A stretch of DNA of 64,000 bases from Geobacter sp. DSM 9736 (GTDB taxonomy: Bacteria; Desulfobacterota; Desulfuromonadia; Geobacterales; Geobacteraceae), in contig NZ_LT896716.1 in assembly GCF_900187405.1 (NCBI RefSeq), positions 2,298,001 through 2,362,000 of the forward strand. Direction: 5' to 3'. This document shows positions 14,744-58,927 of the stretch, piece by piece (position 1 is the stretch's first letter; every line of letters begins with the position of its first letter). The position numbers and the translations under genes were made by a program. The notes beneath the pieces were generated by a model. It searched no databases. It was not told the origin of the DNA and worked only from the letters and a program-made list of their open reading frames with translations.

Positions 14744-15813
14744 GGTTTCTCCTCACCCACGGCGGTCCGCGGCACGTACCGCTCGAACAGCTCCATTCCA
14801 AGCCCGAGGAACCCCGCGAAAGCCGCCGCTGTGGCCAATTCCTCCGCTCCAAGCATCAGTTCCTTTTCGAAGGTGGGCACCACAAGCCACCACCGCTCCA
14901 CCCACATCCCGGCAAGAATCAGGAAAGAAACGCCGCCGAGCCACCAGCGGCTGCGCTTCGCCCGCTCCATCAACAGGAGGACGAGAGGCCCCAAGTAGAC
15001 AACGGCAAGCAGCGCCATGCTCACCGACTTCCAGGGCTGGAAGTTCATGCGCGGCGCCACGAAGCGGACCTCGTGAGGAAGGGCTTCGTACCAGATGGGG
15101 AGCAGGTGGGCATACATGAAGTACGTCGTCATGAGACTGAAAGCGACCACCAGCCGCCCTAGGTCGTGCAGGTGTCCCGGCTGCGCCTCCGGCCGCCACA
15201 CTGCCATGAACGTCCAGCAGGTGATGGCAATGTAGAGGCCGGAGATGAAGAAGTAGCCCCCCGCGAGGGTACTGAACCAGTGAGGATCCAGCGCCATCAC
15301 CAAATCCATGCCGAGGAGGGAGAAGACCAGCGCATACAGGGCGATCAGTATTCCCCCTGCCACCATGCCGTTCCCTTTTCTTCTCGCGGTATAATGCACC
15401 GCCGCCCCCCAGAACAGGAGCAGAGCCAGCCCGTCCCTGGCGAAGATGAACGAGTTGTCGAGCCAGATCCCCTGGTGGAACCTGGAGATGTACCAGGGAG
15501 ACCAGTGCGGGCTTCCTATCCAGAGGACGAGAAGGGCCAGGAGCGACGGGACGGAAAATCCGATCCCCGCGGCCGCCAACCGCTCGATCCCTGTATGCCA
15601 CGACCCGTTGCAGGCCCTGACGATGGCAGGCCATACCGCCAGTCCGCCGGCAAGGGAGGTAAAGAAGATGAAGTTTACCAGCAGGGCACGCCACGCCCGG
15701 GGGCTATCATCCCCCACCGCAAACTTCAGCCAGATGAGCCAGCCGCCGACGGCGAGCAGTGCCCAGAGGAGGGTTCGTAGGGAGACACCGTGATAACGGT
15801 TACCGGTGGACAT
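14740..15813 (-). CDS. actF: ActF-like integral membrane subunit of alternative complex III
   Basis: A 357-residue protein with about ten membrane helices. The segment MDLVMALDPHWFST (near residue 170) is a marker of ActF, and the paired Glu/His residues in the later helices fit the family. The start is the ATG at 15813 behind GGAGGAGATGC; it lies 14 bp inside the end of the preceding ActC-ActD gene, so the two are coupled. ActF is a membrane subunit of the quinol:electron carrier oxidoreductase and may contribute to proton movement. It is followed by actA with a four-base overlap. Confidence 0.83.
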   Translation of the reverse strand: MSTGNRYHGVSLRTLLWALLAVGGWLIWLKFAVGDDSPRAWRALLVNFIFFTSLAGGLAVWPAIVRACNGSWHTGIERLAAAGIGFSVPSLLALLVLWIGSPHWSPWYISRFHQGIWLDNSFIFARDGLALLLFWGAAVHYTARRKGNGMVAGGILIALYALVFSLLGMDLVMALDPHWFSTLAGGYFFISGLYIAITCWTFMAVWRPEAQPGHLHDLGRLVVAFSLMTTYFMYAHLLPIWYEALPHEVRFVAPRMNFQPWKSVSMALLAVVYLGPLVLLLMERAKRSRWWLGGVSFLILAGMWVERWWLVVPTFEKELMLGAEELATAAAFAGFLGLGMELFERYVPRTAVGEEKP

Positions 15814-17674
15814 GCATCTCCTCCGGCGAAGCCGCAGCAAGCAGCTGTTGCAGTCGTTCCGTCTCCCCCCCCTTGCATGAGACGAGAAGCCCGAACATGT
15901 CGCGGCTGAAGCGCGTGTCGTAGTACGGCTCGGTCTTCATGCGGAAGAGCCGGGTGTGGAAGAGCAGGCCGAGGAAGTTCCCCAGGCTTCCCAGAAGGAT
16001 GGTTCCCTCGAAGCCGACGACACAGTAGGGGATTATGGATACAGCGGGTTTGCCGCCGACGATGAGTGAATTGACGAGACCCGTGCCGATAGCGAGCCAG
16101 AATCCTCCCACCAGGCCGCACAATGCCCCGCCGAGGGTCCAGAACCGTACCGGGCTTTTCGGCAGCGTCATCACCTTCTCGGCCTCATCCACCTTGACGG
16201 GCGAGAAGGTCTCCATGGTGCCGAAACCGCCGTCGCACGCAGCCTTCAGCGCCTGCACCATCCGCCCGGCATTGGAAAACAGGGCGAGGACCGCCGGCTG
16301 TCCCGGCTCGATCTTAGTCTTCACGCAGCAGGCGCATGGGGCGGTGGGTTCGATTTCCTCGTCGGCTATCCTCATCTTCAGATCGCTGAGGGGCACCGTG
16401 GGAAGGAGCTTGCTGAACCCGAAGAACCAGAAGAAAAAGAAGGCGAAGGAGCCGGTGGTTATGACGACTTCGACCCATGTCGGAAAGTAGGTCCCCCAGT
16501 TGTGGGGGAGGAAATCGTGGGCAAGAGAGGTGACCACGAGGAAAACCCGCTCAAGCCACATCCCGATGTTGATGATGAGTGAGATCACGAAGAGAGCCAC
16601 CATATTGGTCCGCACCCGCTTGAAGACGAACAGGAGCGGGATCAGCACATTAAAGGGGATCAGCAGCCAGAAGATCAGGGCCGCATCCCCCGTCATCCGC
16701 CATTTGTAGAGCTGCCACTCGAATACGTCCCCCGAGTACCACGCGATGAAGACCTCCATGGCATAGGCATAACCTACTATCGAGGCCGTAAGTATGATGG
16801 TTTTTGCGATAGCCTCGAAATGCAGCGGGGTTATCAGCCGCTCCAGTTTCAGCAGCTTTCGCATCGGAATAAGGAGCGTCAGCACCATTGCAAGGCCGGA
16901 ATGGATCGCGCCGGCGACGAAGTAGGGAGGAAAGATGGTGCTGTGCCACCCCGGCAGGTTGCTAATGGCGAAGTCCCACGAAACTACGGAGTGGACGGAG
17001 ATCACCAGCGGTGTCGCCAGGGCTGCAAAGAAAAGGTACGAACGGCCGTAGTGGTGCCACTGCCTCCCTGTACCAGACCAGCCGAGAGCCATTAATCGAT
17101 AGAGCCGGCTGCGGAAGGCGTCGCGGCCGAGTTCCGCCTCGTACCGGTCCCGGGCCGCCGCCATGTCGGGAATCAGGCCGACAAACCAGAAGATTAGGCT
17201 TACGGTGAAATAGGTGGTCACGGCACAGACATCCCAGATGAGGGGGCTCATGAAAGTAGGCCAGATCTGCCGCTGCGACGGGTACGGTATTATGTAGTAG
17301 AAGACCCAGGTGCGGCCGAGATGGATTATCGGAAATAGTCCCGCCGTCATCACGGCAAATATCGTCATCGCCTCGGACGAGCGGGAGACCGCATCGCGCC
17401 AGTTGGCGCGCAACAGGTAGAGAATGGCGGAGATGAGGGTGCCGGAGTGTGCGATTCCGACCCAGAAAACAAAGTTTCCTATATAAGTGGCCCAGCCCAC
17501 AGGATTGTTCAGGCCGGTAACCCCCATCCCCATCCGCATCTGGTACAGCCAGGCGAGGGCAGCAAGGCCTATGACGGCGGCAAGTGCACTGATGGCCAAC
17601 AGGTAAGGCAGATGGGGCTTTCGCATGGCCACGAGGACGTCATCATTGATCTGGCCGTAGTTCAGTTCAGGCAC
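15800..17674 (-). CDS. actC: Fused ActC-ActD subunit of alternative complex III (NrfD + DUF3341)
   Basis: A 624-residue fusion. Residues 1 to about 440 form an NrfD-type quinol-interacting membrane domain with about ten helices, matching ActC (IAHSGTLISA and HLGRTWVFYY segments). After a linker with a CACCVKTK cysteine cluster, residues about 460-624 match ActD, a DUF3341 protein with two helices (LFSNAGRMVQAL, FETMETFSPV-like region). In characterised operons ActC and ActD are separate, so the fusion is a notable variant. The start is the GTG at 17674 after GGAGGAGCC. A repeat element separates it from actB upstream. Confidence 0.83.
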   Translation of the reverse strand: MPELNYGQINDDVLVAMRKPHLPYLLAISALAAVIGLAALAWLYQMRMGMGVTGLNNPVGWATYIGNFVFWVGIAHSGTLISAILYLLRANWRDAVSRSSEAMTIFAVMTAGLFPIIHLGRTWVFYYIIPYPSQRQIWPTFMSPLIWDVCAVTTYFTVSLIFWFVGLIPDMAAARDRYEAELGRDAFRSRLYRLMALGWSGTGRQWHHYGRSYLFFAALATPLVISVHSVVSWDFAISNLPGWHSTIFPPYFVAGAIHSGLAMVLTLLIPMRKLLKLERLITPLHFEAIAKTIILTASIVGYAYAMEVFIAWYSGDVFEWQLYKWRMTGDAALIFWLLIPFNVLIPLLFVFKRVRTNMVALFVISLIINIGMWLERVFLVVTSLAHDFLPHNWGTYFPTWVEVVITTGSFAFFFFWFFGFSKLLPTVPLSDLKMRIADEEIEPTAPCACCVKTKIEPGQPAVLALFSNAGRMVQALKAACDGGFGTMETFSPVKVDEAEKVMTLPKSPVRFWTLGGALCGLVGGFWLAIGTGLVNSLIVGGKPAVSIIPYCVVGFEGTILLGSLGNFLGLLFHTRLFRMKTEPYYDTRFSRDMFGLLVSCKGGETERLQQLLAAASPEEMHVHR

Positions 17675-17713
17675 GGCTCCTCCGACAGATAATGCCTAAC
17701 TTTCCGGTCCAAT

Positions 17714-17745
17714 GTTTAACAGGATGGACAGGATAGGCAGGAGAA
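17714..17745. repeat. Short tandem CAGGAT repeat
   Basis: Three near-identical units reading ACAGGATGG, ACAGGATAGG and CAGGAGA in a row, just upstream of the ActC-ActD gene. No function can be assigned. Confidence 0.4.
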
Positions 17746-17828
17746 CTTCAAAAAACCTAGCCGCTGCAAATGTCGCGAGTTCAAATCGGTCTCTAAAGCA
17801 TTCAGGAAGCTGCTTAAAACCCCAGGGA

Positions 17829-17961
17829 TGTTCAAAAATAGCCGGATCGTCGCACCCGCAGAAAGTCCCATGGAGGCGTAGTACCCTCTAGGGCATAAAC
17901 AGCGCTACGCCGCACACGGCGGCATTCGAGGAGGGCGGCGAGATGGCTGTTTTTCAACAGC
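17829..17961. repeat. MITE-like dispersed repeat, copy 2 (module A)
   Basis: Starts TGTTCAAAAATAG and ends CTGTTTTTCAACAGCC, so the ends are inverted repeats. Inside lies CGGATCGTCGCACCCGCAG, a central GGCGTAG...CTACGCC palindrome with the 18-bp cassette, and GGCGGCGAGATGGCTG. It ends three bases before the actB stop codon and splits actB from actC-actD. Confidence 0.8.
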
Positions 17962-17964
17962 CCC

Positions 17965-20892
17965 CTATGCACTAACATCCACATCGTTCTCCACACGCCG
18001 CAGGTAAACCACCGCCGGCTTCGTGTTAAGTTCCTTGAGTACCTGATAGCGCCGCGGGTCCGTGCGGATCAGCCTGGACACCTGCGATTGCGGATCAAGC
18101 AGATCTCCGAAGGTGAAGACCTTTGTCGGGCATGTCTGTGCACAGGCCGGAACGACCTCGCCGTCTCGGACGTCACGGTTTTCCACCATCGCCCGGTACT
18201 CCGCCTGCCGGATACGCTGAACGCAGAAAGTGCACTTCTCCATGACCCCCCGCGACCGTACCGTCACTTCGGGGTTGAGCTGCATGTCGAGGGGCTTCTC
18301 CCACTTCGTGTCGAGCCAGTTGAAACGCCGGACCTTGTACGGACAGTTGTTGGAGCAGTAGCGGGTGCCGATGCAGCGGTTGTATACCTGCGCATTGAGC
18401 CCTTCCTCATTGTGCACCGACGCGTACACCGGGCACACCGGTTCACACGGTGCGGTATCGCAGTGCTGGCAGAGCATCGGAAGCCAGGCAAGCCGCAGCC
18501 CTGGTCCCGGTTCTTTCCGGTAGGGAACTACCCGAAGCCATGCCATCTCCAGTTGCCGCGCCACCTGCTTCTTTCCCATCACCGGAATATTGTTTTCGGC
18601 ATAGCAGGCAACCGTGCAGGCCCCGCAGCCGATACATCGGTGGAGATCGATAACCATCGCCCACCGGTGCCGGAGATACTCCCGCTTGGGGTAGAAATCC
18701 CGTTCCTTTCTGTACCCCTCCGGGAGAGGAAGAAAGAGCTCCTCACCCTCCCCCGGCTTCATCATGCGCAGAAGAGACTGGGAAACCCATTGTACGATAC
18801 GACGCCCGTGCTGCTCTCGGGTAGGTACGGTATAGGTCGGATCGTTTTCCCGCCGCTCTCCAGTCCGGCGTATGCGGCAGGAGGGGAATATCCGCCCCGA
18901 CTCCGGCGCCCCGAGCAGCAGAAATGCGTTGGCGCCGGTCTTGCGGGCATTCCGCCCCATTGCCTGATGTCCCTGTCCGAACGCAATCGCCGCAACATTT
19001 TCAGCGACCTCGTCGGTAATCCGTACCGGCGCCCTCAGCGTGCCTGCCGCAGTTGTCAGCTCTGCCACCTCTCCGTTTGCAAGTTTCAGGGCAGATGCCC
19101 TCCTGGGATGGATATCGATCCAGTTCCCCCAGGCAATGGAGGTAACCGGATCAGGAGTTTCCTGAATCCATCCGCGGTTGGCGGTCCTTCCGTCGTAGAG
19201 CATGACCGAGGCCCATGGCCAAAGCTCTACGGTCTCCGGGTCCGTTGACTGACGAGGGACTCCCGTAAGCATACCGGCGGCACCGGCATTGAACCTCACC
19301 TCTGCTGCAGGGACAGATTCCTGCCAGTATCCACCGCCACGCAATGCATCAGTCCAGAATCCGTCTCTGGAGCGGCCGGGGGCAGCCGCCCGCCGCACCT
19401 CATCCCACCGCGCCGCGAGCCATCCACGAAATCCCGACTCCTGGCTGAAGCCGGGGCGGGACAGGGGACGCCCCGCCCGCCGGGCAAGAGAAAGAAATAT
19501 GTCACCCGCCGACATGCTGTCGGTGATTCGCGCCATCCCCGGCTGCAGAAGGCCGTTAACCCCGGGGTAAGGCGCGTATTCGCCCCACGCCTCCAGTGGG
19601 GAGTCTATGGGGAGCACCCAATCCGCGGCTTCGGCGGTTTCATCAGGCATCGTGCCGAGGAAGACTACGAGCCCCGCACGGCGTATCAGATCCAGTGTGC
19701 CGGGACGGGTATAAACAGGGTTGGTGTCGTGGATGAAGAGGATGTCGCTGGGGCCGAGAGTGCCGAAAAAACGCTGCAGCTCTTCCTCCGTAGCGGCATT
19801 CGAAAGCGCATGAGGACGCGAGAAATCCACGGTTTCGCCGATACGGCCGGCGGCGTAGTTGAGAAGGGCGCAGGCGACCGCCGTCTCCAGAGCCTGCGGA
19901 GCGGAACTTCCCACCGGGCCGGCGAGGGCCACACTTCCTTCCGCCTCCACGAACAGACGGGCAAATTGTGTAACGGTCTCACCGGAAACACCGGGAATAG
20001 CGCCAGTGTCCTGAAGCACCCGGTCGATTGCCGGACGAACAGCCGACAGGTCCCGCCGCGACCAGCCTCGGTCGATGATTACCTTGAGCATCGCCACCGC
20101 CACCGCGCGCTCGTACCCCGGTGGCACCTGCAGGAAATCGTCGGCATTGGCAGCAGTCATCGAAAAGCGTGGGCCGACGTACGCCATCCTGCTTGCCCTG
20201 CCCTGCGTCTGGGCACCACGGAACTCCCCGAATCGTGAAGCATATGCCACGGGTGAAATCCAGCTCTCGAGGAAATCGGCGGCAAAGCTGATGACGAACC
20301 GGCACCGGTCGATCCGGTAGTCGGGGACCAGCGGCAAGCCGAAGAGAGCGCCGTGAGCCTTTTTCAGCGTTTCGTAGTGAAACGGCTCGTACAGAAGGAA
20401 CCTTTTGGAGCCGAATGTCGCCGTGAATCGGCGCATGACCTCCGAGAGCGAACCGGTCTGCAGGCTGGAAAGCACGGCAACACTGCGCCCGGGCAAACTT
20501 CCAGCTATCTCCCTTAGCGCCTCCTCCCAGCTCCGCTCCCTCTTCCTCCCGCCCCTTGGGCGGTGCCAGACGCCTTTGATCCTGTCGGGATCGTAGAGAC
20601 CCTGGACCGACGACTGCCCCCTGGGGCAGAGGGCCCCGGCGTTCACCGGGTGAGCAGGATTCCCCTCCGCCTTTGTCACCCTTCCGTCGCGGTGCCACAG
20701 CATCATGCCGCACCCTGCGGGACACTCGCGGCAGGTTGTGGCGAAATGGCTCCATTCTCCGGGGCGGGTCTGTTCAGGTGGATTGACGTAGGGGACGAGC
20801 TTGTTGACGAGCTTGCGTCCGGGCTCGGCGGCAAGAGCCGCTCCGGCTCCGCCGGAAAGCCACATGAAGGTGCGTCTCGTCATTTTCGGCAT
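17965..20892 (-). CDS. actB: ActB-like molybdopterin-oxidoreductase/ferredoxin fusion subunit of alternative complex III
   Basis: A 975-residue periplasmic protein. A twin-arginine signal (TRRTFMWLSGG, residues 4-14) starts the protein. A molybdopterin-oxidoreductase-like domain follows (about 50-690) and retains a four-Cys motif (CRECPAGC and a later LCPRG) near 60-95. The C-terminal part (about 735-960) is a four-cluster ferredoxin-type domain with CIGCGACTVAC, CQHC/CEPVC, CSNNC and CTFC. This two-part layout is that of ActB, which does not bind molybdenum in studied ACIII and relays electrons through its Fe-S clusters. The ATG at 20892 has AGGAG five bases away. It is the first gene of the ACIII-cbb3 cluster. 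Confidence 0.85.
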   Translation of the reverse strand: MPKMTRRTFMWLSGGAGAALAAEPGRKLVNKLVPYVNPPEQTRPGEWSHFATTCRECPAGCGMMLWHRDGRVTKAEGNPAHPVNAGALCPRGQSSVQGLYDPDRIKGVWHRPRGGRKRERSWEEALREIAGSLPGRSVAVLSSLQTGSLSEVMRRFTATFGSKRFLLYEPFHYETLKKAHGALFGLPLVPDYRIDRCRFVISFAADFLESWISPVAYASRFGEFRGAQTQGRASRMAYVGPRFSMTAANADDFLQVPPGYERAVAVAMLKVIIDRGWSRRDLSAVRPAIDRVLQDTGAIPGVSGETVTQFARLFVEAEGSVALAGPVGSSAPQALETAVACALLNYAAGRIGETVDFSRPHALSNAATEEELQRFFGTLGPSDILFIHDTNPVYTRPGTLDLIRRAGLVVFLGTMPDETAEAADWVLPIDSPLEAWGEYAPYPGVNGLLQPGMARITDSMSAGDIFLSLARRAGRPLSRPGFSQESGFRGWLAARWDEVRRAAAPGRSRDGFWTDALRGGGYWQESVPAAEVRFNAGAAGMLTGVPRQSTDPETVELWPWASVMLYDGRTANRGWIQETPDPVTSIAWGNWIDIHPRRASALKLANGEVAELTTAAGTLRAPVRITDEVAENVAAIAFGQGHQAMGRNARKTGANAFLLLGAPESGRIFPSCRIRRTGERRENDPTYTVPTREQHGRRIVQWVSQSLLRMMKPGEGEELFLPLPEGYRKERDFYPKREYLRHRWAMVIDLHRCIGCGACTVACYAENNIPVMGKKQVARQLEMAWLRVVPYRKEPGPGLRLAWLPMLCQHCDTAPCEPVCPVYASVHNEEGLNAQVYNRCIGTRYCSNNCPYKVRRFNWLDTKWEKPLDMQLNPEVTVRSRGVMEKCTFCVQRIRQAEYRAMVENRDVRDGEVVPACAQTCPTKVFTFGDLLDPQSQVSRLIRTDPRRYQVLKELNTKPAVVYLRRVENDVDVSA

Positions 20893-21043
20893 CGCTGCTC
20901 CTGCAAGGTGTCTGTCATTCAAACCTTTAATAAGTTTCGTCCATTTCTTAATCTTGTCAAGGCTCCCAGCCGTGACCTTTCCGGACAACCTGCTAGACTT
21001 TAGAAAGAATCGTGCAGACTGCCGCCGTCGAGAGGAGAGAATC

Positions 21044-22837
21044 ATGGCAACTACGACCAGCGACTTTCTCGTCCATCGCCTTCACGAATGGGGGATTCGC
21101 CGGGTGTACGGCTATCCGGGTGATGGAATAAACGGCGTCATGGGAGCCTTGAACCGCTCAAGGGAGCGGATCGAGTTCATTCAGACCAGGCACGAGGAGG
21201 ATGCGGCACTGATGGCTTGTGCCCATGCCAAATTCACTGGAGAGGTGGGAATTTGCATCGCGACATCGGGCCCCGGCGCCATACACCTGCTGAACGGCCT
21301 TTACGACGCTAAGCTGGACCACCAGCCGGTGGTGGCGATCGTCGGTCAGCAGGCAACCTCCGCCCTGGGGTCCGATTACCAGCAGGAGGTCGACCTAATC
21401 TCCCTCTTCAAAGACGTGGCGGGGCACTATGTCCACATGGCGAGCACCCCCTCCCAGATCCGCCACCTGGTAGATCGCGCCATACGCATCGCGCTCGCCG
21501 AACGCACCGTGACCTGCATCATTCTCCCCAACGACATTCAGGAGATGGATGCAGTCGCCTTCCCGGAAAGGAAGCACGGGACGACCTTCACGGGCACCGG
21601 CTTCAGCCATCCTGAAGTAGTGCCGGCACGAGAAGACCTGCGTCGGGCAGCCGAGGTTCTCAACGCCGGAAACAGAGTGGCTGTTCTCGTAGGGGCAGGG
21701 GCAAGCGGCGCGGCCTATGAAGTCATGGAGGTTGCCGAACGGCTCGGAGCCGGTGTCGCCAAGGCACTGCTGGGCAAAACCGTCCTTCCCGATGAACTCC
21801 CCTATGTCACCGGCTCCATCGGCCTCCTCGGCACAAAGCCGAGCTGGGACATGATGATGAACTGCGACACCCTCTTCATGATCGGCAGCGGCTTTCCGTA
21901 TGCGGAGTTTCTGCCCAGGGAAGGCCAGGCTCGCGGAGTCCAGATCGACATCAGCGCAAGGATGCTCGGGCTGCGATACCCCATGGAGGTGAACCTGCAG
22001 GGGGACAGCGCCCTCACGCTGCGGGCGCTCATCCCGCTCCTGGAGAAGAAGACCGATGGCAGATGGAGGGAGCAGATCGAGGAGGGTGTGAAAGAGTGGT
22101 GGGACGTTATGCATGCAAGGGCGATGCTTGATGCAAACCCTGTCAACCCGCAGCGGCTTTTCTGGGAGCTCTCACCCAAACTCCCCAACAACTGCATCCT
22201 CACCTGCGACTCCGGTTCCGCCGCCAACTGGTATGCCCGTGATATCAGGGTACGCCACGGCATGATGGCATCCCTTTCCGGCAATCTCGCCACCATGTGT
22301 CCGGCGGTCCCCTACGCGCTGGCCGCCAAGATGAATCACCCGAAGCGGCCTGTGATCGCCATGGTCGGCGACGGAGCCATGCAGATGCTCGGCATCAACG
22401 GACTCATCACAGTATCCAAGTACTGGAAGAGGTGGGGAGACCCGCGCCTTATCTTCCTGGTCCTCGACAACCTCGACCTCAACCAGGTGACCTGGGAGCA
22501 GCGGGTGATGAACGCGGACCCGAAGTTCTCGGCCAGCCAGGACCTTCCACCCTTTCCCTACGCCAAATATGCCGAAATGATAGGCCTGCGCGGCATCGAG
22601 GTCCGCAGCCCGGAGCAGATCAGCAGGGCGTGGGACATGGCCCTCAACTGCGACCGCCCCGCAGTGATAGACGCGCACTGCGACCCCGACGTCCCCCCCC
22701 TGCCCCCGCATATCACTTTAGAGCAGGCAAAAGGATACATGTTCTCCATCTTCAAGGGGGACCCGAACCTCGGCGGAATGGTTAAGCAGTCAGCCAGGCA
22801 GATGATGGCGACATGGCTGTCGCGGAATGAGAAATAA
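21044..22837 (+). CDS. Thiamine diphosphate-dependent enzyme, pyruvate oxidase-like
   Basis: A 597-residue member of the acetolactate synthase/pyruvate oxidase family. The N-terminal domain has the TPP-activating glutamate (E51 in TRHEEDAA) and GYPGDGING, and the C-terminal domain has the TPP/Mg motif starting GDG (442-444) and ending in LDN. It most resembles the YdaP/PoxB-type 'TPP-requiring enzyme' group rather than IlvB, because no small regulatory subunit gene follows. Substrate is probably pyruvate. The ATG at 21044 follows AGAGGAGAG. It is divergent from actB, and a DUF2231 gene follows by 33 bp, so these may form an operon. Confidence 0.8.
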   Translation: MATTTSDFLVHRLHEWGIRRVYGYPGDGINGVMGALNRSRERIEFIQTRHEEDAALMACAHAKFTGEVGICIATSGPGAIHLLNGLYDAKLDHQPVVAIVGQQATSALGSDYQQEVDLISLFKDVAGHYVHMASTPSQIRHLVDRAIRIALAERTVTCIILPNDIQEMDAVAFPERKHGTTFTGTGFSHPEVVPAREDLRRAAEVLNAGNRVAVLVGAGASGAAYEVMEVAERLGAGVAKALLGKTVLPDELPYVTGSIGLLGTKPSWDMMMNCDTLFMIGSGFPYAEFLPREGQARGVQIDISARMLGLRYPMEVNLQGDSALTLRALIPLLEKKTDGRWREQIEEGVKEWWDVMHARAMLDANPVNPQRLFWELSPKLPNNCILTCDSGSAANWYARDIRVRHGMMASLSGNLATMCPAVPYALAAKMNHPKRPVIAMVGDGAMQMLGINGLITVSKYWKRWGDPRLIFLVLDNLDLNQVTWEQRVMNADPKFSASQDLPPFPYAKYAEMIGLRGIEVRSPEQISRAWDMALNCDRPAVIDAHCDPDVPPLPPHITLEQAKGYMFSIFKGDPNLGGMVKQSARQMMATWLSRNEK

Positions 22838-43042: not shown

Positions 43043-44353
43043 CTATCGAGTCAAGAGCCGCTTCGCTATGACATCATGACTTACCCAGTAGACAGGTTCG
43101 GAAGAGCTCCACATGGTGTCGAGCATCAGCCAGCCCACCCCGGTGAAAACCGCCCGCGACAGTGCCGCGCAGACAATCTCTTTAGGGTTCCGGCTCATTT
43201 CCATGAGCCGCGCCGAGCTGTTGAGCATCAGCTCCATCTGCTCCCGCGTATTGTGGTGCGGCCAGGTGGCGTACTCACGAAACGGCGCGTGAAGGGGCGA
43301 AGAGAGGTACGCGTTGGCTTCGGCGAGCAGGGTCTCCAGCGAAACATCGTCGCGAAGGAGCTGTCGACATTCCTCTTTTATCGATTCCGCCACAGGACCT
43401 CCACCCTCCCGGTCGAGGGCTGCGAGGAGCGGATAGAGCGACAGCTCGACCCCGAGAAACAGGGCGCTTGAATTCGTCTGGATCTCGGGGGAATTGAATA
43501 CCGCAGCGGTTATACCCTCTGCGCACGCAGCCGCGGCATGCTGTTCCAGGAGGATCTTCGCCCAGCCGGTGAGGTAGGGTGTATAAGACTGCCATATATA
43601 GTCGCCGTCGACGAGAACCTCGCAGCCATGGTAGCCGTAGGCTGCGTAAGCGACTCTTCCTCCGGCGCCGGAGACGCGCTGCCGCACGCCTTCCGTCTCC
43701 TTAACGAGATGCCGGAAGGTCTCGGCAGTTACCTCGGCAAAGTTATCGCGGCATAACACGCCCAGGTCGGATTGCCAGAATGCTTCGGAGGAGATGAAAC
43801 GATCCCCCTGCCCCTTGAAGACACGGTTCAGGAGCGGCATGTAAACCCGTGCCCTCGGAACGCCTCCCGCCATGGCATGAACAAACAGGACGTTTGCCCC
43901 TGGCGGAATCATTGCGTCGAGCTCGCGTGCGAAGCGGCCCATATTGGCTGTGAAGCGTTCAACCCCCTTCTGCCGGGATTCCGCTAGAAGCGCTCCATCG
44001 AGGCGGAAGGAATCCCAGTCGTCGGGCTTCACTCCTTTAAGGCGATCAGCCGGCGTAAGGCCGTCAGCTGCCTGCTCCAGATCGAAACCCGCCTCAAGAG
44101 CGACGTTCACGATTTTAGCCCCAAGAAGTGACTCTGCCGCTGCCAGTTCTTCCGGGTTCAATGGTCGCAGACTGCCGTCGGAGTCGCGCCGGCCGACGCT
44201 TGAACCGATGATGGTCATCCCCCTGTTCCGGGCCTCTTCGACGATGCCGTTGGCATACCCGCGCCCGAACAGCTCCCCCACGAGGACTAGCACGTCCCCT
44301 TTCCCGTATCCAGCCCTTTCCGGCAGCTGCCGCAGCGGATTGTATGGCGTCAT
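43043..44353 (-). CDS. Conserved hypothetical protein with Rossmann-like N-terminus
   Basis: A 436-residue cytoplasmic protein. The N-terminal 60 residues look like a nucleotide-binding beta-alpha unit (GDVLVLVGELFGRGYANG and then GMTIIGSSVGRRD), followed by a helical body with an AMAGGVPRARVY segment near 165. It may be an NAD(P)-dependent reductase or a related enzyme, but I cannot identify it. Two ATGs are present: 44353 is chosen because AAGGAG lies six bases upstream, while 44359 overlaps that site. It lies downstream of dnaB on the same strand, but a dispersed repeat separates them. Confidence 0.72.
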   Translation of the reverse strand: MTPYNPLRQLPERAGYGKGDVLVLVGELFGRGYANGIVEEARNRGMTIIGSSVGRRDSDGSLRPLNPEELAAAESLLGAKIVNVALEAGFDLEQAADGLTPADRLKGVKPDDWDSFRLDGALLAESRQKGVERFTANMGRFARELDAMIPPGANVLFVHAMAGGVPRARVYMPLLNRVFKGQGDRFISSEAFWQSDLGVLCRDNFAEVTAETFRHLVKETEGVRQRVSGAGGRVAYAAYGYHGCEVLVDGDYIWQSYTPYLTGWAKILLEQHAAAACAEGITAAVFNSPEIQTNSSALFLGVELSLYPLLAALDREGGGPVAESIKEECRQLLRDDVSLETLLAEANAYLSSPLHAPFREYATWPHHNTREQMELMLNSSARLMEMSRNPKEIVCAALSRAVFTGVGWLMLDTMWSSSEPVYWVSHDVIAKRLLTR

Positions 44354-44419
44354 ATCCATCTCCTTTACAAGCTCAATTAAACAGGCATTAGAAGAACAAA
44401 AACTCCTGCGGTATCACAG

Positions 44420-50940: not shown

Positions 50941-53295
50941 TCATCTCAGCGTCACCACTGTCACTCCGCTCCCACCTTCCGCCTGCTCGCCGGAGCGCAG
51001 CTCCCGCACGAGGGGATGAGAGTCCAGATACTCCCTGACAGCTCTCATCAGAGCTCCTGTGCCGACTCCGTGAATGACAGTGACCTCGCTCATCCCCGCA
51101 AGGGACGCGTGGTTCAGGAAGGGCTCTATCCGGGATATGGCGTCGTCCACCCGCAAACCGACGAGGTTGAGCCGTGACTCTGCCTCAGGCTCCTCTACCT
51201 GTTGTTTCCCCCTGCGCGGGGCCGGGCGAGCAGCCTTCCCCCTGCGCGGCGCCACTCCTGCCATGGGCACATCGATCTCCAGCGCTCCCGCTTTTACCCG
51301 AACCCGCTCATGACGCTGATCTACCGCCAGCACCTGTGCATCATACCCGAGGGACGTAACGAAGACGGTGTCACCTACTCCGATCTCGCCGGCGGGTAGA
51401 GCCTCCTCAGGATGTATGGCCCGCAGCTGCCCGTTAATCCTGCGCTCCCGCTCGTCCAGCACCTTCAAAGCCTCGCGCCGCTTTTCCCGTTTTACCTCGT
51501 CGAGCACCCCGCGTGCTTCGCGCCGTGCATCCTGCACGACCTGCCGGGCCTCTTGCAGAGCCTTCTCCAGGGCATTCCGCCGTTCCTGTTCCGCCGCCGC
51601 CCGCCGATCCGCCGCCCGCCGCGCCTCTTCGGCGAGCTGCCGCCTGATCTTCTCGGCATCCTCCAGGGCTTCGTGCTGAAGACGCCGTTGCTCCTGCAGC
51701 TCAGCCAGCAGTTCGTGGAACTCCGTATCCATTCGTCCCAACATTCCTGTGGCAAATTCGATGATCCGTTCGGGGAGACCATACCTGCGTGCGATTTCTA
51801 TGGCGTGGGATTGACCGGGGAGTCCTGTCCGCAGACGGTAGAGAGGGGTGAGCCGCTCTCTGTCGAAGTCCATGGAGGCGTTGACCATACCCGTAGATTT
51901 GTGAACGAAGCCGACAATCTCCGTCAGGTGCGTCGTGGCAATCACGAGAGACCCCTGATCCCGAAGATCATTGAGAATGGCGCAGGCAAGGGCGGCACCC
52001 TGAAGGGGTTCGGTGCCGGTGCCGAGTTCGTCCAGGAGCACGAGAGTGCGCCTTCCTGCCCTCCGGAGAAAACGGCTGATGGTGGAAATGTGCCCGGAAA
52101 AAGTGGAAAGGCTGCTGTCGATGGACTGCTCGTCGCCAATATCCACGAGGAGATCGTCCACCAGGGGAAAGGTCGAGGTGGAAGCGGCACTCACCGGAAT
52201 GCCGGACAGCGCCATGAGAAGCAGAAGCCCCGTTGTTTTAAGGGCGATGGTCTTGCCGCCGGCATTGGGGCCAGTTATCACCATAGTTGTCGACTCATCC
52301 CGCTCCGTTCCCAGCGTCAAATCGAGAGGGACCACTTCCTCCCCCTTCTCTTTCCTCAGGAGGAGCAGAAGGGGGTGGCGAGCCTGCACGAGACGGATTG
52401 CGGCTGCTTCTCCGATTGAGGGTATTTCGGCGCCGAGCCGTTCGGCAAAAACGGAAATGGCATACAGGCAGTCGAGCTTGACGAGGGCTTCGAACTCCCG
52501 CTCGATACCGTCGGCCTCTTCCCTGATCCAGCGGGAGATCTCGCGCACAATGCGGATCTCCTCGACCTTGACCTCGGCGATCAGGTTTTCCAGCTCGTTG
52601 GCAAGGCTGATTATCTCTATCGGCTCCATGAACGCTGTTTCGCCGGAGCCGGAAACGTCATGGACCACCCCCTGCACCATCCCCTTGGAGTCCATGCGGA
52701 CCGGGATGACCCACCGGCCGTTGCGCTGCGTGATGAAGTCGTCCTGAAGAAATATCGCCACCTGCTTCTCCCGGACGATCTCCTCGAGCCTCTTTCTGAT
52801 ACGCGCGGTAAGGTTCCGTTTCCGGGTGCGAAGCTCGAAGAGGAGCTTCGAAGCGGTGTCGAGAATGTGCCCTTCACGATCGATGGAATGCGACAGGGTT
52901 TCCAGTATTTCGGGAAACCCGGTGACGAATCCCCCCACTTCCTGGAGCAGGGGTATGTCGGTCCTGTAGGCGAACTGCCTCGACAGCACGGTAAGAACTT
53001 CCAGGACCGGGATCAATACCACCAGGTCCCGCGGGTCGAGCACCGCCCCTTCCGGCCTCACGTGGGCCAGAAGGGGAGCGATGTCCTCAAAAGCGGCGAT
53101 CCGGAGCGGAACGCCGATTTGATGAAGCCTGCGGATCTCCTCCACCTGCCCGAATCGCTCCTCAATCTGCGCTCTGGCAGGAAGCGGAGCAATCTCACGG
53201 ATAACCCGGGCCGATGGCTCACTGTGGGTAAACGCCGCAATGGTCTGGAGGATGCGGTTGAATTCAAGTGCGCGCAAGGCGTCGTTGTCTATCAT
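50941..53295 (-). CDS. mutS2: Endonuclease MutS2
   Basis: A 784-residue protein with the MutS2 order: helical core, ATPase with Walker A GPNAGGKT (342-349) and DELGTGTEP, a long coiled-coil segment rich in Arg/Glu/Ala (about 515-640), and a C-terminal Smr nuclease domain (LVGLRVDDA, IHGVGTGAL). MutS2 acts on branched DNA and on collided ribosomes in other bacteria. The ATG at 53295 is 21 bp downstream of the release-factor-like gene. This is the second Smr-domain protein of the window. Confidence 0.92.
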   Translation of the reverse strand: MIDNDALRALEFNRILQTIAAFTHSEPSARVIREIAPLPARAQIEERFGQVEEIRRLHQIGVPLRIAAFEDIAPLLAHVRPEGAVLDPRDLVVLIPVLEVLTVLSRQFAYRTDIPLLQEVGGFVTGFPEILETLSHSIDREGHILDTASKLLFELRTRKRNLTARIRKRLEEIVREKQVAIFLQDDFITQRNGRWVIPVRMDSKGMVQGVVHDVSGSGETAFMEPIEIISLANELENLIAEVKVEEIRIVREISRWIREEADGIEREFEALVKLDCLYAISVFAERLGAEIPSIGEAAAIRLVQARHPLLLLLRKEKGEEVVPLDLTLGTERDESTTMVITGPNAGGKTIALKTTGLLLLMALSGIPVSAASTSTFPLVDDLLVDIGDEQSIDSSLSTFSGHISTISRFLRRAGRRTLVLLDELGTGTEPLQGAALACAILNDLRDQGSLVIATTHLTEIVGFVHKSTGMVNASMDFDRERLTPLYRLRTGLPGQSHAIEIARRYGLPERIIEFATGMLGRMDTEFHELLAELQEQRRLQHEALEDAEKIRRQLAEEARRAADRRAAAEQERRNALEKALQEARQVVQDARREARGVLDEVKREKRREALKVLDERERRINGQLRAIHPEEALPAGEIGVGDTVFVTSLGYDAQVLAVDQRHERVRVKAGALEIDVPMAGVAPRRGKAARPAPRRGKQQVEEPEAESRLNLVGLRVDDAISRIEPFLNHASLAGMSEVTVIHGVGTGALMRAVREYLDSHPLVRELRSGEQAEGGSGVTVVTLR

Positions 53296-53751: not shown

Positions 53752-54762
53752 TCAGGATTCGGCGACGACGATGACCGCCGCTCCGCAGAGCCGGCCGCTG
53801 CGCAGGTCTTCGAGGGCGTTATTGGCTGCTTCGAGGGGGTAGGGGGTAACTTCGGTCCTCACCGGCACCTGGGGTGCGAGCCGCAGGAACTCTTCCCCGT
53901 CCCGGCGGGTCAGGTTCGCAACGGACCTGACCGTACGCTCCCCCCAGAGAAGACTGTAGGGAAAAGAAGGGATGTCGCTCATGTGGATGCCGCCACAGAC
54001 GACGGTACCGCCGGGGGCGACCGCGCGGAGGGCTGCCGGGACCAATTCCCCGGCCGGTGCAAAGATAATGGCCGCGTCCAGCATTTCAGGAGGAAGCGCA
54101 TCGGCGTCGCCGGCCCATTCCGCGCCCATCTCCAGTGCGAACCGCCGCGCCTCCAGATCTCCCGGGCGGGAGAAGGCGAATATCCGGCGCCCCTGGAAAC
54201 GTGCTACCTGCGCGACGATGTGGGCGGCGGCACCGAATCCGTAGAGTCCAATTACCCCGGCATCTCCAGCCATGCATAGGGAACGGTAGCCGATAAGGCC
54301 GGCACAGAGGAGGGGCGCAGCCTGCAGGTCGGGATATCCTTCGGGAATCGGAAAACAGAAGCGGTGGTCGGCAACGGCATAGTCGGCGAAGCCGCCGTCG
54401 AACTGGTAACCCGTGAAGCGGGCCCGCTCGCAGAGGTTCTCCCGGCCGCTCCGGCAGTAGGAACATTCACTGCAAGTGGAGCCGAGCCACGGCACACCGA
54501 CCCTCATTCCCGGACCGAATGCTCCCGCATTGCTTCCGACTGCAGCAATCCGTCCCACGATCTGGTGGCCCGGAACCAGAGGAAGCTTTGGCTCGGTGAG
54601 TTCACCATCGACGATATGGAGGTCGGTCCTGCACAGACCGCATGCATGAACCCGGATGAGGATCTCCCCCTCCCGCGGCTGCGGAACCGGCAGCTCCATC
54701 AGGCGAAGAGGCTCACCCGCCCGTTCAAGAACCATTGCCCGCATAACCGTACCGGCCGTCAC
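53752..54762 (-). CDS. Zinc-dependent alcohol dehydrogenase
   Basis: A 336-residue medium-chain dehydrogenase. The catalytic zinc ligands are C41 and H66 (PGHQ replaces the more common PGHE), and the structural zinc cysteines are C97, C100, C103 and C111. The nucleotide-binding loop is YGFGAAAH near 194. It should interconvert an alcohol and an aldehyde with NAD(P). It starts at a GTG overlapping the 2H-phosphoesterase stop by four bases (GTGA). An internal ATG at 54744 is an alternative start. Confidence 0.87.
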   Translation of the reverse strand: MTAGTVMRAMVLERAGEPLRLMELPVPQPREGEILIRVHACGLCRTDLHIVDGELTEPKLPLVPGHQIVGRIAAVGSNAGAFGPGMRVGVPWLGSTCSECSYCRSGRENLCERARFTGYQFDGGFADYAVADHRFCFPIPEGYPDLQAAPLLCAGLIGYRSLCMAGDAGVIGLYGFGAAAHIVAQVARFQGRRIFAFSRPGDLEARRFALEMGAEWAGDADALPPEMLDAAIIFAPAGELVPAALRAVAPGGTVVCGGIHMSDIPSFPYSLLWGERTVRSVANLTRRDGEEFLRLAPQVPVRTEVTPYPLEAANNALEDLRSGRLCGAAVIVVAES

Positions 54763-55307
54763 AGCTCCCCCCCCTTCCCCAGCACCACTTCATGTATTGT
54801 TCGCCAGTCGCCGGTATCGCGCCAACCTTCCCGGATGTTCCCCGGCGTCGCCACCTTTATGCGGTCGAACAGAAGTTCTTCCCGGTCCAGCCGCACCTGC
54901 CGCGCCAGTTCCCGCTTCTCCTCCAGCGGCATATCACGGTAGAGGAGGCTCAGGTGTGGAAACAGCCGATAGCCTGAATCGTTGCCCATACGCGATTTGA
55001 TTCCGTCATGAATCTTTCGCAGCGTCACGCTCTCGTCTAACTCGATGAAGAGGGTCTTGAAATATTCTTCCATCGCCCCCACCCGCCGGCAATGCAGCGA
55101 AAACGGGTCCACCCCCCGTACCGCCTCAGTCACCGCCCGCTTCAACTCCTCTGGGTCCGTGAGTAGGACCGAGTAGACGGTGACATGGGGCTCGAAGGGA
55201 GTCATGCCGAAGCGCGCGCACCACGCCCGTACCAGTGCCTCCGTGTAGGCCAGGTCATCCCCTGCAGGGGCAAGGAAAACGGAATATTTACGTTCGTCTG
55301 TCTGCAT
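54759..55307 (-). CDS. 2H phosphoesterase (cyclic phosphodiesterase-like)
   Basis: A 182-residue protein with the two HxT/S signatures of 2H phosphoesterases: H41-V-T43 (PHVTVY) and H118-L-S120 (PHLSLLY). Members open 2',3'-cyclic phosphates on nucleotides or RNA. The sequence resembles the plant/fungal cyclic phosphodiesterase group rather than LigT. It is coupled to the alcohol dehydrogenase gene by a four-base overlap. The natural substrate is unknown. Confidence 0.75.
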   Translation of the reverse strand: MQTDERKYSVFLAPAGDDLAYTEALVRAWCARFGMTPFEPHVTVYSVLLTDPEELKRAVTEAVRGVDPFSLHCRRVGAMEEYFKTLFIELDESVTLRKIHDGIKSRMGNDSGYRLFPHLSLLYRDMPLEEKRELARQVRLDREELLFDRIKVATPGNIREGWRDTGDWRTIHEVVLGKGGEL

Positions 55308-57601: not shown

Positions 57602-58927
57602 TCAGAACCCCGCTACTCCCGCGGTGATCTGGTCCCAGTATGTCACCTTATCCTGGTGCCAGGTTACGAGACGGGCACTGCCGTCATGGGAAAGGACTAT
57701 TACGATGGCGTCATGGAGGTCGTGGCACAGCCGGTAGGCGGCCCGATGACGGGTACCGACCCGCTCGCTCCCCTCCATCATCGTGTGGGAACCCTCCACG
57801 TCCATCGCACGCGCCACCGCCTCCACCTTGTCTATATCCCCCGAGATCACTGCGCCGAAGCCCAGGAGTTCCTGCCGCTTCGATATCACCACGGCGCCGT
57901 CTATTGAAGCGAAACCGGCAATGAGGTGAGCGACGTCGAATAGAGCCTCGTCAAGGAGTGCCAGCTTTTCGCTCCGGCAAAGGATGTAATGCTCCCACCC
58001 CACCACCCGGTCAGGCTCCGATGCGCTGCCTGCCGCCTCGGCAAAGGCATTCATGATGTTAACGATCAGGGTCCTCAGCCGTTGCCTCGGCTCTTCCTCG
58101 ACGAACTGGTACTTGATGGACATGAACTGGTTGTCGCAGCAGAGTGCTGCGGCCTGCTCCTCGGGAAGGTAGACCAGGGTGCCTCCATGATGGGAATTCC
58201 GGATACTGCCGATGATACGCTTCACGACCTGCTGCACCAGCTTCCTTACAAAATCGGGAGCCAGTACGGCCCAGGGGGAGGAAGCCTGGGCACGGGCCTT
58301 CTGGTGCAGGGCGTACAGCTCGCTGCGGACCTCGTCGAAACTCGCCCGCAGCCAGGGTGCATTGAAAACATCCCGGGAGGCGCGGGTAATCTTGCCGCCG
58401 TTGAGGGAAGCGACGATCTCCGAGCCGCGGCAGACGGCGATGCGGCCGGGTCCGGCTACATACACCACAAGCGCCGGCGGAAGTGGAGCCGCAGTTCTTC
58501 GCCCACCGAACACCGACTGCATCCATCGGGGACCGGAGTGGACGATACCCCACATCTGCAGCCCCAGGATGGGATCGAACCTCACACCGATGAGGGATCG
58601 GTAGAAATCCACGGCCGGGGAAAGACGCTGAAGTTCGTACTCGTTGAAGGGCCTCGGCTGCGTGAAAATAAGCCGGTGCAGCCCGTCGGGTGTCCCCTCT
58701 TCGGCGGGGAAAAGGGAAGGTTCGCGGAGGATCAGCCGGAAATCAACCGTGCGTTCCTCCTCCCGGAGCAGGCTCGCCTGATAGCAGATCGACAAGAGAC
58801 GCTGCAGCGTGCGCTGGTCCGGAAGCTCTTCCGGGATTTCACCCGTTTCCTCGTCCACGGATGGCCACTTGGCGAGTACGAACCTCATCAGCTCTCTCGG
58901 ATATGAATGGCTTTCGCGTGATGGCAC
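57602..58927 (-). CDS. DisA_N (DAC)-domain protein, putative diadenylate cyclase with DACNV-like sensor
   Basis: A 441-residue cytoplasmic protein. The first 300 residues form a large uncharacterised region, perhaps a DACNV-type sensor. The C-terminal segment resembles the diadenylate cyclase (DAC) domain: the DGA motif (D343, in IDGAVVISK) and the RHR motif (393-395, in GTRHRAA) are both intact and 47 residues apart, as in known c-di-AMP synthases. It would make c-di-AMP from two ATP. It starts at a GTG with GAGG eight bases upstream. It is not adjacent to a known c-di-AMP phosphodiesterase. The call is by motif only. Confidence 0.75.
   Translation of the reverse strand: MPSRESHSYPRELMRFVLAKWPSVDEETGEIPEELPDQRTLQRLLSICYQASLLREEERTVDFRLILREPSLFPAEEGTPDGLHRLIFTQPRPFNEYELQRLSPAVDFYRSLIGVRFDPILGLQMWGIVHSGPRWMQSVFGGRRTAAPLPPALVVYVAGPGRIAVCRGSEIVASLNGGKITRASRDVFNAPWLRASFDEVRSELYALHQKARAQASSPWAVLAPDFVRKLVQQVVKRIIGSIRNSHHGGTLVYLPEEQAAALCCDNQFMSIKYQFVEEEPRQRLRTLIVNIMNAFAEAAGSASEPDRVVGWEHYILCRSEKLALLDEALFDVAHLIAGFASIDGAVVISKRQELLGFGAVISGDIDKVEAVARAMDVEGSHTMMEGSERVGTRHRAAYRLCHDLHDAIVIVLSHDGSARLVTWHQDKVTYWDQITAGVAGF

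Follow-up and report, generated by a model that had tools for sequence, protein, structure and literature searches.

The gene at 57602..58927 on the minus strand of the window, that is, of the whole 64,000-nucleotide stretch of Geobacter sp. DSM 9736 DNA that was analysed, raises the question of whether a protein carrying the motifs of a diadenylate cyclase (DAC) makes c-di-AMP, and of what its long N-terminal part contributes. An earlier note had described the product as a putative c-di-AMP synthase with a large unknown sensor domain. The reading preferred here, and held with reasonable confidence, is that the gene encodes a soluble DACNV–DAC diadenylate cyclase, the third DAC protein of its genome, whose N-terminal domain would control the dimer.

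The reading frame comprises 441 codons, with a GTG start at 58927 and a stop codon ending at 57602, giving a protein of 441 aa. The next in-frame ATG would yield a 428-aa product, but the GTG start is favoured because the homologue alignment places the family-conserved Y9-P10 upstream of that ATG. No strong membrane segment is predicted; the hydropathy maximum over 19 residues, 1.63, falls at residue 330, within the helix that precedes the DGA motif, whereas a CdaA of the same genome reaches 2.20. The N-terminal domain spans residues ~36–187 (58367..58822, minus strand), as judged from Pfam DACNV and a model of residues 1–225, and both DGA and GTRHR are absent from it. The C-terminal catalytic DAC domain spans residues ~226–441 (57605..58252, minus strand) on the evidence of Pfam DAC, a CdaA/DisA fold and hhalign.

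The motifs that had been pointed out in the C-terminal segment are both present: DGAVV occupies residues 343–347, with DGA itself at 343–345 (57893..57901), and GTRHRAA lies at 391–397 (57737..57757), all on the minus strand. An HMM search, which had been proposed as a check, gives matches above the cut-off of 27 for both halves, with 108.2 bits for DACNV (residues 33–130) and 27.4 bits for DAC (residues 358–416), the latter only 0.4 bits above it. A phmmer search of PDB with the single protein sequence found no DAC. A 32-row profile of the catalytic half (alignment A5, 31 of 66 listed homologues plus the window protein) matched CdaA chains in PDB with a best E of 3e-4, and hhalign of these 32 catalytic halves against 13 CdaA sequences returned 95% probability and E 2e-8 over 46 columns around GTRHR. 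The predicted structure also agrees with the expectation that this half folds as a DAC. An AlphaFold2 model of the whole protein from 20 rows (pLDDT 81, pTM 0.70) was used in a structure search, in which the best 40 entries are all DACs of the CdaA or DisA type, with Z 9.2–11.7 over 131–142 aligned residues within model residues 173–439. Altogether 72 chains reach Z of at least 8, the 40 entries shown among them all being DACs, and the other listed rows never exceed Z 3.3. Together, Pfam and the whole model place the start of the DAC fold at about residue 190–226. The statement that the N-terminal 300 residues have no recognised function thus fails on two counts, as Pfam assigns residues 33–130 to DACNV with 108 bits, and residue 300 already lies well inside the DAC fold.

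Residue conservation was assessed in homologues. No relative could be confirmed when species genomes were scanned with the protein sequence by itself; an alignment-based scan found 182 stretches encoding one, of which the best 80 were kept. The homologue set counted here omits L003 and L007, which are the gene under study, as well as L106, which is interrupted by Ns, giving 103 homologues; removal of five proteins of a second type (L024–L028) left 98. Nineteen main-type homologues were found with the N-terminal DACNV profile alone; the other 79 came partly through the pattern GTRHR[AS]AYR, so that conservation of GTRHR can be judged without bias in the 19 only. Section 2.3 of the review PMC7288161 lists the side chains of Listeria CdaA that contact ATP or metal as Leu31, Asp71, Thr102, Arg103, His104, Ser122 and Glu124. 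Mapped by motif and alignment, their counterparts are L251, D343, T392, R393, H394, S413 and D415, with Glu124 of CdaA replaced by Asp415. Among the 98 homologues D343, R393, H394 and S413 are invariant, T392 is found in 97 and R395 in 95, and position 415 is Asp in 95 and Glu in three. Position 251 varies among Leu (75), Ile (16), Val (6) and Phe (1). D343, T392, R393, H394, R395, S413 and D415 are each present in 19/19 of the proteins found from the N-terminal profile, and every position of DGAV and GTRHR is kept in 19/19 of these and in at least 76 of the 79 others. The DGA and GTRHRAA motifs are therefore not chance matches.

Three features set this DAC domain apart from that of CdaA. The first is spacing: DGA and GTRHR are 48 residues apart in the window protein and 30 apart in 13/13 aligned CdaA copies (alignment A4, 13 of 30 distinct extracted copies, L127 having been lost as a duplicate or non-match). 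The distance from the Asp to the Thr is 49 residues in 96/98 homologues, so the earlier note was right to remark on the spacing. In the AlphaFold2 model, short strands at 370–374 and 382–386 lie inside this longer stretch. The second is the (V/I)SEE phosphate/metal motif, whose counterpart is S413-H414-D415 (57683..57691, minus strand). It reads LSHD in the window protein and mostly SQD across the family, with the Ser kept throughout; the motif is thus a variant one, although the protein remains above the Pfam cut-off for a DAC. The third is the residue preceding DGA, which in the 98 homologues is V (63), I (18), T (8), A (6) or C (3) and never His. Passages of PMC12974146 state that His precedes DGA in CdaA types and is lacking in DisA types, which use Mg2+; the His found in all 13 CdaA copies here is not evidence, because the extraction pattern demanded it.

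The window protein shares the DAC fold, DGA, GTRHRAA and the conserved Ser with the membrane cyclase CdaA/DacA. It differs in the wider spacing, in S-[Q/H/K]-D in place of SEE, in the absence of CdaA-like membrane segments and of the His before DGA, and in the N-terminal DACNV domain. With DisA it shares the DAC fold (Z up to 11.7) and a non-His residue before DGA, but the DAC lies at the C-terminus here and at the N-terminus in DisA. CdaS is soluble, with a regulatory part ahead of a C-terminal DAC. The window protein resembles it in layout, being predicted soluble with an N-terminal part before the C-terminal DAC. NCBIfam scores are 12.4 for CdaA (cut-off 188.8), 10.7 for DisA (cut-off 201) and 18.7 for CdaS (cut-off 225). 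As these fall far below the cut-offs, the protein is a DAC unlike all three, in agreement with what had been claimed from the motif surroundings. Instead it matches the DACNV–DAC proteins (PF21751 plus PF02457) in having both domains above the Pfam cut-offs, and the 19 main-type homologues share its domain order at 434–456 aa. Nothing essential sets it apart from this family, and judged by its sequence it is an ordinary member of one already catalogued under Pfam DACNV.

Because the Pfam profile, the predicted fold and the residue conservation agree, the window protein is very likely a diadenylate cyclase, which upholds the earlier designation as a putative c-di-AMP synthase. The mechanism we infer is that of an active, metal-dependent dimer. 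In it the C-terminal DAC domains of two subunits would face each other with one ATP apiece, bound through L251, D343, T392-R393-H394 and S413, and D415 would hold the metal as the paired ATPs are closed into c-di-AMP. The N-terminal domain would decide whether this face-to-face dimer forms or works.

The nature of the N-terminal domain is less clear. The earlier label, a large unknown sensor domain, holds in part: the domain is named in Pfam as DACNV, a 'probable sensor domain', and is as conserved as the catalytic half. The DACNV model has 98 positions and accounts for just the front portion of the predicted domain, which extends to about residue 187. DACNV is matched by 69/69 rows of the N-terminal alignment (A3, consisting of 68 of 69 non-redundant homologues, the truncated L092 being left out, and the window protein), and two other families are matched weakly, by three rows and one row. 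PDB sequences gave no match to this half (best E 0.51). Residues 1–225 were modelled alone from the 69 rows (pLDDT 87, pTM 0.78). Foldseek of this model against PDB returned nothing significant; the best match (E 2.4) is not a DAC, DACs are absent from the 50 rows shown, and the top-ranked chains have many other folds. A likeness to fructose-1,6-bisphosphatase was rejected as too weak, with Z 2.7–3.3 for the whole model and 3.0 for the domain alone.

A second look with VIA gave a different picture. It aligned 846 of the 851 chains top-ranked by Foldseek, 46 of them with Z of at least 5. The 28 best listed entries are all DACs (DacM, CdaM, DisA, CdaA) with Z 5.8–7.9, a range that by the tool's own note (Z under 8) can mean a common arrangement, and the next row has Z 3.0. 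The aligned stretches are 113–122 residues long, at 3.5–4.3 Å, and for the most part fall within residues 36–180 of the model. This likeness is not an echo of the catalytic domain, because the query held nothing of it beyond residue 225. Given the 72 chains at Z of at least 8 with the whole model, a large part of the DAC chains in the library seems to have reached the pool of 851 out of 350,542, more than chance would give. In the models, the order of the main elements agrees between the N-terminal domain and the DAC half, bar extra elements in the latter. The resemblance to the DAC fold may be considered real but unproven.

Profile comparison counts against this likeness. No significant similarity between the N-terminal domain and DAC was found with hhalign, the scores lying within the shuffled range: column shuffles reached the observed score in 56/150 cases for the C-terminal domain and 64/150 for CdaA. 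The best match to CdaA pairs N-terminal residues 148–177 with positions 128–158 of the CdaA profile. Its position agrees with the structural diagonal, since in converted numbering it differs from the VIA end point by no more than one residue, and a BLASTP segment (E 0.066) is in the same register. Nine of 300 shuffles fell equally on the diagonal, three with matches as long, in a test that was chosen after the match had been seen. The best match to the C-terminal domain falls off the structural diagonal.

These data leave two readings of the N-terminal domain within an active cyclase. In the first, which we put at nearly an even chance, the domain has the DAC fold but neither DGA nor RHR, and its present role is that of a regulatory pseudo-domain that perhaps still binds a nucleotide in the old pocket. 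A nucleotide bound there could regulate synthesis; alternatively, the pseudo-domain could act as a decoy that docks on the active face and controls assembly of the working dimer. The corresponding idea for the whole DACNV family, a tandem of pseudo-cyclase and active cyclase in which the former regulates c-di-AMP synthesis, has the same probability; this pseudo-DAC/DAC tandem is proposed on the strength of one structural comparison. The second reading, a serious alternative of slightly lower probability, is that the domain is an ordinary small-molecule sensor with its own fold, the resemblance to DAC being a common alpha/beta arrangement. The absence of a significant Foldseek match in PDB, profile comparisons with DAC no better than shuffled and the Pfam name are all consistent with such a sensor, and 19/158 columns at least 95% invariant are what a binding pocket might show. 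Set against it, every one of the 28 listed entries above Z 3.0 is a DAC, although the Foldseek-top chains from which they came have many folds.

Conservation was similar in the two halves. The mean modal fraction is 0.645 for residues 33–190, with those 19 columns including R64, W126, G127, G132, W135, P150 and G161, and 0.635 for residues 236–433, with 28/197 columns at least 95% invariant; in some of these columns (CYQAS, GTRHR), which formed part of the search patterns, conservation is inflated for the 79 pattern-found rows. From the alignment, the N-terminal domain looks as conserved as the catalytic half and not like a fast-changing sensor. The name DACNV reportedly comes, in all likelihood, from Galperin 2023, 'All DACs in a row'. 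That work lay outside the literature search, which found no statement on the DACNV fold, and the pseudo-DAC idea may have been published already.

By record title, the relatives of the protein include Geobacteraceae, Nitrospirae, Rubrobacter, Melainabacteria/Obscuribacterales, Cyanobacteria, Polyangiaceae, Verrucomicrobia, Desulfopila and Desulfobulbus, the nearest named one being a Geobacteraceae protein 66% identical to the window protein. The tree joins the window protein to two rows of its own family (99/93) and places a single set of four Nitrospirota rows and one Syntrophaceae row (100/100) inside a set of Geobacterales rows. The position of this set suggests gene transfer, with the proviso that several rows are metagenome bins. 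The second-type DACNV–DAC proteins (L024–L028) have DGL for DGA together with GTRHRS and come from five genomes of the same family, in which the main type is present too; the three rows aligned are 22–23% identical to the window protein.

Among 395 genomes drawn from the phylum, 22 carry DACNV, 20 of them above the cut-off. The N-terminal profile matches 18 of 20 further phylum loci, leaving L157 and L159 without a match. L158, which is below the cut-off and has neither DGA nor RH motifs, looks like a false match. The 17 loci L140–L156 encode a DGA- or DGC-type motif followed by an RH-type motif (KH in one), and 10/17 have H, N, Q or C in place of the second Arg of RHR, so not every DACNV member need be active. 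L148–L156 keep DGA and have Asn, Gln or Cys as the third RHR residue; the activity of these proteins may be altered or lost.

Such changes raise the possibility that the DAC of the window protein itself is catalytically dead or altered, binding nucleotide only or forming another product. The change of SEE to S-[Q/H/K]-D, a DGA–RHR spacer 18 residues longer than in CdaA, the borderline Pfam DAC score and the altered third RHR residue of the more distant relatives would fit this view. It is nonetheless improbable, as the family retains the catalytic side chains, still has an acidic residue in place of the metal Glu (Asp in 95 and Glu in three of 98) and keeps the third Arg in 95/98.

The genes downstream of the active cyclase proposed here, on the same strand, encode a histidine kinase, a ROK kinase, a 2H phosphoesterase (CPDase/LigT-like, 54759-55307, minus strand) and an alcohol dehydrogenase. 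The kinase gene is 122 bp from the cyclase gene and overlaps the ROK gene, and the 2H phosphoesterase could act on cyclic or linear nucleotides. In L030, the closest relative among the best 80 of 182, a 2H phosphoesterase fused to a HAD domain (L030:7454-8707) lies directly downstream of the cyclase and is 52% identical to that of the window. That the cyclase works with the downstream kinase, ROK kinase and phosphoesterase as a local operon is less probable still, despite the shared strand, the 122-bp gap and the L030 arrangement, since in the flanks of the 80 loci (up to 6 kb per side, some shortened by contig ends) the 2H gene occurs in L030 only, kinases weakly like that of the window (27–31% identical) occur in five loci in mixed places and strands, and the ROK gene occurs in none.

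More generally, a conserved operon partner was rejected after the neighbours of the 80 loci (longest-ORF rule) were clustered and 35 clusters listed. Strand and place vary within the widest cluster (14 loci) and within another of 9 loci, those with a steady strand (5–12 loci) come from Geomonas and close relatives, and the remainder cover 2–4 loci. Ten selected neighbours, when scanned, had unrelated functions. A DAC beside CBASS is reported in a passage of PMC13092281; here an anti-phage link was rejected, as neither the cyclase nor three neighbours matched a PADLOC family at E 0.01 and no CBASS-like context was seen. A BFVD search gave nothing at E ≤ 0.001. An Rfam scan of the window gave nothing at the gathering score, and promoter- or terminator-like sites between 53600 and 59300 are no more frequent than in shuffles. 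Elsewhere in the window are a MutS2-like gene (50941-53295) whose product combines MutS domain V with a C-terminal Smr domain, a FabMG-type enoyl-ACP reductase gene (43043-44359, 657 bits), and genes with NrfD, ActD and molybdopterin Fe4S4 domains (15800-21045) suggestive of an alternative complex III-like cluster.

The genome, 3.96 Mb in one contig, has three DAC matches. The first CdaA lies between folP-like (before) and YbbR-like (after) ORFs, and the second (L002:769-2247) has a long YbbR-like C-terminal tail and adjoins a ubiE-like gene, the names being given by inspection. In the same order, none of the 58 genomes searched lacks a DAC match; two matches above 100 bits are found in 52 (this genome included) and one in the other six. 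Many genomes of the order have a second DAC match whose open frame exceeds that of CdaA in length. DACNV is carried by 19/58, again counting this genome. Judged from these sequences, c-di-AMP synthesis is not special to this genome, and DACNV is a patchy extra. Because of the two CdaA-type cyclases here and the two strong DACs in most of the order, the window gene would seem to be an accessory synthase, the group having other sources of c-di-AMP. Sequence and model together make it very probably an active one.

Other parts of c-di-AMP metabolism are also represented. The genome encodes one PgpH-type 7TM-HD protein and has six TrkA_C matches, five of them above the cut-off, so a degrading enzyme and possible effectors exist. 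A ydaO riboswitch was looked for and not found. That c-di-AMP is little studied in this group, as the earlier note held, accords with a Geobacter paper in which the four c-di-AMP or diadenylate passages seen all fall in the reference list. With two strong DACs in most genomes of the order and a soluble extra one in some, these bacteria offer a simple system in which to study the role of an accessory synthase. If the N-terminal domain is indeed a pseudo-DAC, a family so far described as a 'probable sensor' would gain a mechanism, through nucleotide binding or control of the dimer.
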